Origin: Streptomyces rapamycinicus NRRL 5491
GTDB lineage: Bacteria > Actinomycetota > Actinomycetes > Streptomycetales > Streptomycetaceae
Assembly: GCF_024298965.1 (NCBI RefSeq)
Contig: NZ_CP085193.1
Location: forward strand, 1,550,001 to 1,614,000
DNA length: 64,000 nt
Direction: 5' to 3'
The notes below the pieces were generated by a model that saw nothing but the letters and a program-made list of their open reading frames with translations, made no database searches and was not told where the DNA came from. This document shows, in pieces, positions 4,805-16,858 of the stretch. Made by a program: the position numbers and the translations under genes. How positions within the stretch are numbered: position 1 is the first letter of the stretch; every line of letters starts with the position of its first letter.

Positions 4805-6460
<1,656 letters not shown>

Positions 6461-14837: not shown

Positions 14838-15698
14838 TCACGCCGTGGCCATGACCGGGGCCCCGCTGTCCGCGTCGATGACGCTGACCCGGACGGCGGG
14901 CTCAGGCACCGTGTCCAGGCTGGCCCCGGCGTCCACCGCGAAGAGCACCAGCACCGGCCGCGCGGCCGGGCCGCCCCCGTACACCCCGGCGAACTGCAGG
15001 ATGCGCCAGCCGCCGTCGTCCCAGTGGTCCAGCAGCGCGGAGCGCACCACACGGGAGACGCTCTGCCAGGCGCGCGAACGCTCCAGCAGTTCGACCGTCG
15101 CGGCGACCGGGACCGCCGTCCGCGCTCCGGTCGCGGCGAGCGGATGCCCGGTGAACCGCAGCCGCAGCCGGCGCAGCGGCATCCGCCAGCGGCGGTCGGG
15201 ATCGGCGGAGAGGGCCGTCAGGGCCGCCGCCGCGGCCAGGACCAGGCACAGCGCCGCGGCCGGACGGCGGCCCGCCGCGGTCCACCAGGGCTGCTGGGCC
15301 AGGGCCGCCGCGACCCCGCCCGCGAGGACCGCGGCGGCCCGGACGAAGGCGCGCCAGGTGAGGGGGGCGTCCGGCCGCGCCGTACAGCCGCAGGAGGAGC
15401 CGGGCGCGGCGGCGCGGGCGTAGCCGAGGTAGCCGAGGAAGCCCGCGCCGAGGAGGGTGGCCGCCGCCCCCGGGAGCCAGGTGAGGGGCGGTGCCAGCAG
15501 CGCGGCGGCGAGGAGGAGTTCGACCGCGCCGAGGACGCGGAGGGCGAGCGCGGCCCGGCCGCCGTCACGCAGCAGCCGCGCGAGCGCGGTACGCGGCGCC
15601 TGCCGGGCGGCGCCCCGGCCGAACAGCTTGCTCGCACCGGCCGGCCCGAGCACCCCGGCGAGCACCAGCGGGGCGAGGTCGCGGACCAGGGCGCTCAC
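14838..15698 (-). CDS. MauE/DoxX-type redox-associated membrane protein with an extra C-terminal domain
   Basis: This 286-aa protein has about five membrane helices in residues 5-195 and a CxC pair (Cys103, Cys105 in GSSCGCTARPD) in a loop. This is the arrangement seen in MauE-like proteins, which support disulphide formation in secreted cysteine-rich partners such as the methylamine dehydrogenase light chain. A further 90-residue domain (about 195-286), not part of the basic MauE unit, follows. The GTG start overlaps the stop of the Tat-exported protein gene (GTGA). Upstream in the same operon lies a protein with 16 cysteines, the obvious candidate client. Confidence 0.75.
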   Translation of the reverse strand: MSALVRDLAPLVLAGVLGPAGASKLFGRGAARQAPRTALARLLRDGGRAALALRVLGAVELLLAAALLAPPLTWLPGAAATLLGAGFLGYLGYARAAAPGSSCGCTARPDAPLTWRAFVRAAAVLAGGVAAALAQQPWWTAAGRRPAAALCLVLAAAAALTALSADPDRRWRMPLRRLRLRFTGHPLAATGARTAVPVAATVELLERSRAWQSVSRVVRSALLDHWDDGGWRILQFAGVYGGGPAARPVLVLFAVDAGASLDTVPEPAVRVSVIDADSGAPVMATA

Positions 15699-16330
15699 CG
15701 CCGCCTCCCGGCGCCGGGGGCGACCGCGACCCGGACCAGGTCCACGGAGCCGTCGGACGGCCGCCACGCGCCCAGCACCTGGGCGCTCTGCCCGATGGTG
15801 AGCCGGGACAGATCGGCGGTGGGCGAGGCGGTGCCGTACGCGGCGCTGGTGGTCTCCGCCATGAGGTTGCCGACGATCTCGTGCTGCCCGTGGGCGAGGT
15901 GCAGCCGGGTCTTCTCGATGCCGCGGATGGTGGCGTGGAGGTTCACGATGTTGACCCACACCGCGTCGGCGGCGAGGGTGCCGTCGGGCAGGGGGACGCC
16001 GCGGGCGTAGAGGCCGTCGCCGGTCTCGATGTCGGCCGCGGTGGTGGCCCGGGCCTTCCAGACACTGGTGGCGCCCGTGACCCGCACCCGGGAGTGGTCG
16101 CCGTAGGAGCCCGCGACCGCCAGGACATCGTCGTTGATCGCGGTGATCCGCCCCTCGGCGAAGGCGCTCTCGGCGACCGCGGGGTCCAGGGGGCGTATGG
16201 GCGCGGCGAAGGCGGCGTCGGCGTCCACGGCGCCCAGGGCGGTCGCCCCGACGACGGTGGCGCCGTGGAGGGCGGCGGTGGTGAGGAAGCGACGGCGGTC
16301 GAGGGGATCGCCGGTTCGGTACGCGCTCAT
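15695..16330 (-). CDS. Tat-exported beta-rich protein of unknown function
   Basis: This 211-aa protein has a twin-arginine signal: LDRRRFLTTAALHGATVVGA, then a likely cleavage near DADAAFAAP. The mature part (about residues 45-205) is rich in short Val/Thr/Gly stretches (GRITAINDDVLAVAGSYGDH, VTGATSVWKARATTA), fitting one or two small beta-barrels of the DUF5666/OB-like kind. No catalytic motif is apparent. It lies 13 bases after the cysteine-rich gene and overlaps the MauE-like gene by 4 bases, so all three should be co-expressed. It could act as the Tat carrier for the cysteine-rich protein, which has no signal of its own. Confidence 0.7.
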   Translation of the reverse strand: MSAYRTGDPLDRRRFLTTAALHGATVVGATALGAVDADAAFAAPIRPLDPAVAESAFAEGRITAINDDVLAVAGSYGDHSRVRVTGATSVWKARATTAADIETGDGLYARGVPLPDGTLAADAVWVNIVNLHATIRGIEKTRLHLAHGQHEIVGNLMAETTSAAYGTASPTADLSRLTIGQSAQVLGAWRPSDGSVDLVRVAVAPGAGRRR

Positions 16331-16343
16331 GGCCGGGCCCGCC

Positions 16344-16766
16344 TCATTCGAAGATGGAGACCGGCAGGGTGCCGGAGCTCAGGCTGCCGATGGCGGAGAA
16401 GGCGGCGGGGGTGAGGTCGATGACCCGGTTGGTGCGGCAGACCCCGTCGCAGCAGGTGGACTCGGAGCAGAAGCCTCGGGTGCGGGGGCCGCAGTCGCTG
16501 ACGGTGACACAGACGCTCGCGCCCGAGCAGTCATGGCGCACCTTCATCACCGAGCCGCAGCCGCGCCGGGGTATGTCCTCGCCGCACAGGTCCGGCCGGG
16601 TGATGTCCCAGCACGCCTTGGAGGCGTTGGGCCAGGCGGCCTGAAGGGCGCTGGACCGGCAGGTGCCGCACGCGCCGCCGCCCGCGGAGGCGCACGGACC
16701 CCAGGCGCTGCCACAACAGAACCAGGTGGCCTCGCCGTTCCAGAGCTTGGTCGATCCGCACGCCAT
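16344..16766 (-). CDS. 16-cysteine double-psi beta-barrel-like protein
   Basis: This 140-aa protein has 16 cysteines, enough for eight disulphides. The N-terminal GEATWF, the middle GACGTC and CGSVMKVRHDCSGASVCVTV segments, and the C-terminal IDLTPAAFSAIGSLSSGTL follow the order of expansin/RlpA/barwin-like double-psi beta-barrels, with the terminal DLTPAAFSAIG being very typical. Streptomyces papain-inhibitor proteins share this fold. The ATG at 16766 has GGAGG 8 bases upstream. It starts MACGSTKLWNGEATWF and has no signal peptide, which is odd for a disulphide-rich protein. It is first in an operon with a Tat substrate and a MauE-like protein. Confidence 0.72.
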   Translation of the reverse strand: MACGSTKLWNGEATWFCCGSAWGPCASAGGGACGTCRSSALQAAWPNASKACWDITRPDLCGEDIPRRGCGSVMKVRHDCSGASVCVTVSDCGPRTRGFCSESTCCDGVCRTNRVIDLTPAAFSAIGSLSSGTLPVSIFE

Positions 16767-16858
16767 GGCACTGTCCTCCCGGCCTCGGTCCCGCCCTCGG
16801 AGCAGCACCATCATCCGCGGGGCCGGGCGCGGTCGCCACGGGAAGGCGTCCGGTCGGA

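Follow-up and report, generated by a model that had tools for sequence, protein, structure and literature searches.

A conserved three-gene cassette of Streptomyces rapamycinicus as a candidate folding-and-export unit for a cysteine-rich double-psi barrel protein

Introduction

The bacterial cytoplasm is a reducing compartment, and the twin-arginine translocation (Tat) pathway carries proteins that are already folded. Hitchhiking on this pathway is established (PMC10924467, PMC4273604), and Tat is described as wanting folded cargo, PhoA and antibody fragments having needed prior oxidation (PMC6708511). Small membrane proteins of the thiol type are known from other settings, as a DoxX-type protein is encoded in lasso-peptide clusters (PMC9266682, PMC7168211), and MauE proteins together with cysteine-rich precursors were noticed among Streptomyces candidates for ribosomally synthesized and post-translationally modified peptides (RiPPs), in a survey of proteins under 100 amino acids (PMC7794033). 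The subject of this work is a three-gene cassette of soil actinomycetes, with genes here called D, T and M, as found in Streptomyces rapamycinicus NRRL 5491. It lies in a window of 64,000 nucleotides (the whole stretch of DNA analysed, positions 1,550,001 to 1,614,000 of contig NZ_CP085193.1), and the host genome is a single contig of 12.47 Mb.

We propose, with a probability of about 0.45, that D, T and M constitute a dedicated folding-and-export cassette, in which the cysteine-rich protein D would be oxidized inside the cell, exported by Tat on the signal of T and used in a wall or glycan role. The cassette offers a compact, testable natural case for asking how proteins rich in disulphides are prepared for export by Tat. 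A folding-and-export unit of this kind seems undescribed: a literature search on the D-T-M combination, judged by titles and abstract openings, mainly of open-access papers and with preprints outside its scope, gave no description, in agreement with an earlier sequence-only reading of this DNA, which knew of no described system of this form.

Organization of the locus

The three genes follow each other on the reverse strand, with a gap of 13 bases from D to T and an overlap of 4 bases between T and M. Their features are the following.

16344-16766, (-) strand: gene D, 140 amino acids, 16 cysteines, predicted double-psi barrel, signal-peptide-free
16774..16780, (-) strand: Shine-Dalgarno-like GGGAGGA of gene D, 7 bases 5' of the ATG at 16766
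15695-16330, (-) strand: gene T, 211 amino acids, Tat-type signal, two predicted oligonucleotide/oligosaccharide-binding (OB) folds
16202..16330, (-) strand: Tat-type signal region of T (about residues 1-43), with RRRFLT, an uncharged stretch and A-x-A
14838-15698, (-) strand: gene M, 286 amino acids, MauE-type membrane protein with a C-terminal soluble domain
15384..15392, (-) strand: CGC codons of M (residues 103-105), predicted to lie on the cytoplasmic face
14838..15197, (-) strand: C-terminal domain of M (about residues 168-286), predicted to be cytoplasmic

The sequence-only reading had described a 140-residue double-psi barrel protein with 16 cysteines, a twin-arginine protein following after 13 bases and a MauE-like protein with a CxC loop overlapping by 4 bases. 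The gene reading and the family and conservation results given below for each protein bear out all three descriptions. Promoter and terminator scans at the cassette found none, such scans being uninformative in this genome.

A cassette that occurs as a unit

The profile of D confirmed at least 164 genome loci, the best 80 of which were kept, leaning to near relatives. In all 80, T and M adjoin D in the order D-T-M on one strand, one T match being split over two frames and four M being cut by a contig end. These loci come from Streptomyces, Actinacidiphila, Amycolatopsis, Kibdelosporangium, Nonomuraea and Sphaerisporangium, as well as Kribbella, Plantactinospora, Catellatospora, Phytomonospora and others. 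The sequence-only reading had made its proposal depend on the three genes co-occurring elsewhere, and this co-occurrence holds at the 80 loci as well as in the genome samples.

Among 295 genomes of the own genus, D was found in 21 (the own genome included) and a strong T match, meaning E 2.4e-88 or lower, in exactly the same 21, always beside D. T matches were present in 26 genomes of this sample, but five of them were weak (E 2e-4 to 4e-4), fell in frames of 942-1146 amino acids, covered at most profile positions 4-89 and were left uncounted. In a class sample of 394 genomes, strong D and strong T each occurred in the same five; 9 of the 14 T matches were weak and uncounted, and 8 of the 13 D matches were weak, seven of these being the T-D fusion protein described below and the eighth genome lying outside the fusion sample. 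A phylum sample of 396 genomes held strong D in the own genome only, besides two weak matches (E 4e-4 and 5e-4). M, searched with a profile of both its domains, was found in 25/25 D-positive genomes (the 21 of the genus sample and four more of the class sample, some matches being fragments) and in none of 31 D-negative own-genus genomes, which had been picked from the genus, class and phylum sample lists.

No further gene family is conserved in the cassette flanks, as compared for frames of at least 90 amino acids at 40 of 81 loci chosen for diversity: only D, T, M and antisense frames formed families present in more than 8 of the 40, and the one family present in 8 was a frame antisense in M. 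The three proteins show correlated pairwise distances, with r 0.94, 0.89 and 0.90 across 74 loci and 0.72-0.79 in the streptomycete subset, as expected from shared descent. The cassette is sparse and all-or-none in the samples searched, and this occurrence, together with the correlated distances, leads to the conclusion that it is inherited or moved as a single unit. A viral origin was considered and rejected, none of 36 pattern matches encoding a relative. Plasmid carriage was likewise set aside, the sole plasmid matches to D and to the fusion lying in a single Nonomuraea record of 11.85 Mb that is filed under plasmids.

A T-D fusion in Streptosporangiaceae

Two D-positive genomes contain a second M-like gene, and beside each lies a protein of 312-320 amino acids, the first part of which is T-like (hhalign E 7e-6, probability 84%) and the last part D-like (E 2e-4, probability 47%). 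By single-profile hidden Markov model, the T half, at 7.1 and 1.0 bits, is a weaker identification than the D half, at about 25 bits. The fusion protein gave no family in Pfam (both proteins scanned) or NCBIfam (one scanned). It is present in 105/110 genomes of its taxonomic family at E 1e-3 and in 103/110 below 1e-30. This family is taken as Streptosporangiaceae, as the collection draws it, because one fusion genome is 100% identical over 3393 bases to a locus of Nonomuraea deserti, and an assignment to Pseudonocardiaceae was rejected on this match; Nonomuraea gerenzanensis also encodes the fusion. M adjoins the fusion at the 30 best-scoring loci (30/30) and in 20/20 regions chosen for spread, which together represent 46 distinct genomes of the 105. 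One fusion locus reads as follows.

L146:5856-6818, (-) strand: T-D fusion, then its own M at 4994-5851, (-) strand

The fusion indicates that T and D work as one body, and thus lends strong, if indirect, support to the earlier suggestion that D rides with T. It starts with a 'DRRRVLAAAALGR'-type sequence and keeps the twin arginine in 30/30. Its uncharged run is only 7-9 residues long, against 13-23 in T, so that the fusion seems to be without a usable signal core and probably is no standard substrate of Tat. The best 15-residue hydropathy within the first 60 residues (0.27-1.86, median 1.33, in the fusion; 1.29-1.83 in T) does not separate the two, which slightly lowers the probability of the wider reading given below, in which the fusion is not exported and inner-face chemistry is older. 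Nine cysteines of the fusion are invariant and one more is present in 27/30, and the positions of D91 and D117 of D carry Ala and Glu, respectively.

In 19/20 regions a sigma-factor family lies upstream of the fusion, mostly on the opposite strand; two members, taken from the first pair of fusion loci, were scanned and belong to the SigE family (TIGR02983). A gene read by eye as P-loop ATPase-like (L147:3938-5224, (+) strand), opposite in strand to the fusion-M operon, ends near it. Related frames occur in 14/20 regions, and for this gene NCBIfam returned only a weak orc1/cdc6 match.

The cysteine-rich barrel D

D scores 31.5 bits against Pfam DPBB_1 (PF03330), above the curated cut-off of 28.8, and stays far below the cut-offs of RlpA (TIGR00413; 11.4 bits, cut-off 82.15) and expansin EXLX1 (NF041144; 11.9 bits, cut-off 100). 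Its near relatives are publicly named 'septal ring lytic transglycosylase RlpA family' or hypothetical, and identity reaches 99% in Streptomyces violaceusniger, S. iranensis and S. endocoffeicus. A Protein Data Bank sequence search with D gave a best match of E 0.032. The AlphaFold2 model (mean predicted local distance difference test score 87.4) matches the folds of PA4485, loosenin, kiwellin, expansins and the Streptomyces papain inhibitor. D91 (Asp of DCGP) and D117 (Asp of IDLT) align with Asp positions of PA4485.

The 16 cysteines are not a chance observation, as 14 columns are near-invariant across the family: among 192 sequences, the window's own included, 12 of the 14 columns hold Cys in every sequence reaching them, and positions 105 and 110 hold it in 191/192 and 190/192. 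C3 and C84/86 vary together, being both present in 101 sequences and both absent in 89, with no discordant case. This table refers to a narrowed trait (Cys before residue 7) in the 190 sequences left after two incomplete ones were dropped; an earlier, wider count of any Cys before residue 17 had given 101 with both, 81 with neither, 9 with the N-terminal trait only, their Cys being at position 11 or 13, and one fragment with the other only. Each trait changed five times, and a disulphide explains this paired gain and loss better than a metal site would, which supports the earlier idea of disulphides in D. No co-variation was found between C43 and C136 (both present in 9 sequences, each of them alone in 19). 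Many D proteins from outside Streptomyces carry an odd 15th cysteine, either at residue 136 (loci L065, L068, L073, L075, L078 and L080) or at residue 43, which may be a free thiol or take part in an intermolecular disulphide.

The signal-bearing T and the membrane protein M

T ('LDRRRFLTTAAL', with the twin-arginine motif 'DRRRFLTT') has no cysteine. It scores 23.2 bits against DUF5666 (PF18914), under the cut-off of 27, and its near relatives are publicly named 'cell wall protein'. The twin arginine is kept in 36/36 T proteins, followed by the uncharged run of 13-23 residues, and A-x-A occurs within residues 21-90 in 36/36, a loose test in proteins as Ala-rich as these. Judged by such simple counts rather than by a signal predictor, T displays the twin-arginine, hydrophobic core and A-x-A motifs of a Tat substrate.

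M matches MauE (PF07291) at 48.6 bits (cut-off 27), is 94% identical in S. iranensis and belongs with near relatives named 'MauE/DoxX family redox-associated membrane protein'. The CGC motif, read as 'SSCGCT', is present in 76/77 M proteins of at least 150 amino acids, the remaining one being unreadable there, and in 30/30 of those linked to the fusion. The C-terminal domain matches no Pfam family, and no second copy was found in the own genome; it is kept in both the cassette and the fusion-linked M groups.

Five hydrophobic segments appear in M when 30 proteins are averaged. Lysines and arginines of the cassette M number about 7 in loop 1, about 4 in the CGC loop and about 5 at the start of the C-terminal domain, or about 16 in total against about 1 in the outer parts, and fusion-linked M proteins likewise carry about 15 on the CGC-loop side against about 1.4 in the outer parts. 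By the positive-inside rule, positively charged loops face the cytoplasm, and the concentration of these residues therefore places the CGC loop, and with it the C-terminal domain, on the predicted cytoplasmic face. The earlier suggestion that M oxidizes an exported partner outside the cell is not supported by this charge distribution.

Near 11.96 Mb of the own genome (contig C1), a second MauE protein (84.4 bits) lies beside an open reading frame of 69 amino acids with 10 cysteines and no Pfam family. The pair resembles the MauE and cysteine-rich pairs reported among RiPP candidates.

L200:3710-4327, (-) strand: second MauE protein
L200:4489-4698, (-) strand: 69-residue, 10-cysteine open reading frame

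Proposed mechanism and rival explanations

From these features we infer a D-T complex, its export, a redox chemistry acting on the cytoplasmic side and a final function of D. D would be made without a signal, its double-psi barrel being held by seven to eight disulphides, and would fold at the cytoplasmic membrane face, where the CGC pair of M would form or sort the disulphides while the C-terminal domain of M docks the client. D would then attach to T at the latter's tandem OB domains, and the two proteins, folded, would leave together by Tat on the signal of T. As T carries a signal and D lacks one, hitchhiking is the simplest account, and since Tat prefers folded cargo, some of which needs prior disulphides, an inward CGC pair would meet that need. 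Once outside, D, with its expansin/RlpA fold, may serve as a hardened protein that binds the wall or glycans, or as an inhibitor. The sidedness of M and the export of D are the weak points of this proposal, and it also counts against it that for some proteins Tat transport does not require the disulphides to have formed (PMC6708511). A wider version, which is rather unlikely, joins a pre-export disulphide system, with inward CGC and tandem-OB carrier, to a core fusion that is not exported: if the fusion and its own M stay inside, they would represent an older inner-face arrangement, with chemistry at the inner face as the original function.

Disulphide-free passage of Tat cargo is equally the starting point of an export-first order of events, in which D crosses reduced, with T or alone, and an outward CGC pair of M oxidizes it outside; MauE has also been speculated to aid disulphides in the beta subunit of methylamine dehydrogenase (PMC7794033). 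The charge counts, which predict a cytoplasmic CGC loop for both groups of M, speak against this order, and we regard it as unlikely. The same inward prediction for CGC and C-terminal domain, together with the missing signal on D, the short uncharged run of the fusion and the odd cysteine counts of many relatives, would suit a D that stays in the cytoplasm, reduced or metal-binding, and works with M, T being exported separately and merely co-regulated. Such a D is improbable in our view, as the C3 and C84/86 pairing with 14 near-fixed cysteines fits a disulphide over a metal site, the Tat-type signal is kept on T, T and D are fused elsewhere, and the solved fold relatives of D include expansins, kiwellin and the Streptomyces papain inhibitor, all of them secreted proteins.

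A RiPP-like role, in which D is a substrate modified by M and other enzymes with T as carrier, draws on three Streptomyces candidate families with mauE homologues and precursors of at least 8 cysteines (PMC7794033), on the DoxX-type protein of lasso clusters (PMC9266682) and on the second MauE pair of the own genome. It is very improbable, since D is a folded domain of 140 amino acids with a confident barrel model, the RiPP survey covered proteins under 100 amino acids (PMC7794033) and the 40 loci compared show no other conserved gene next to the cassette. If the folding-and-export proposal is true, three protein families without known function gain one shared function, and the poorly understood MauE proteins gain a client and a partner as well as a question of sidedness, the family-wide fused form serving as an internal comparison for the cassette.

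Comparison with known systems

The closest likeness for D and T is found in Tat hitchhiker pairs such as the subunits of hydrogenase and formate dehydrogenase or PaoABC, in which one co-encoded partner alone bears the signal; the tyrosinase pair MelC1/MelC2 is a further case. Unlike these, D is cysteine-rich with disulphide-like co-variation and its operon adds a dedicated membrane thiol protein, and the D-T complex and its co-export are putative. In the MauE/MauD maturation of methylamine dehydrogenase, as in the cassette, a MauE-domain membrane protein is encoded with a cysteine-rich client. The cassette differs in that no further gene is conserved in the 40 flanks, a comparison made without a search for mau genes by name there or elsewhere in the genomes, and in the extra C-terminal domain of M.

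The lasso proteins SviE and HumE (DoxX family) and the MauE-associated RiPP candidates likewise pair a small membrane protein of the thiol type with a product that bears disulphides or is rich in cysteine, but no peptide-modifying gene is conserved in the 40 cassette flanks compared, and here the client is a 140-residue barrel domain accompanied by a partner with a Tat signal. Finally, the barrels of expansins, RlpA, kiwellin and the papain inhibitor share the fold of D, whereas D is distinguished from them by its signal-free start, its cysteine-rich N-terminal stretch and its 14-16 cysteines.
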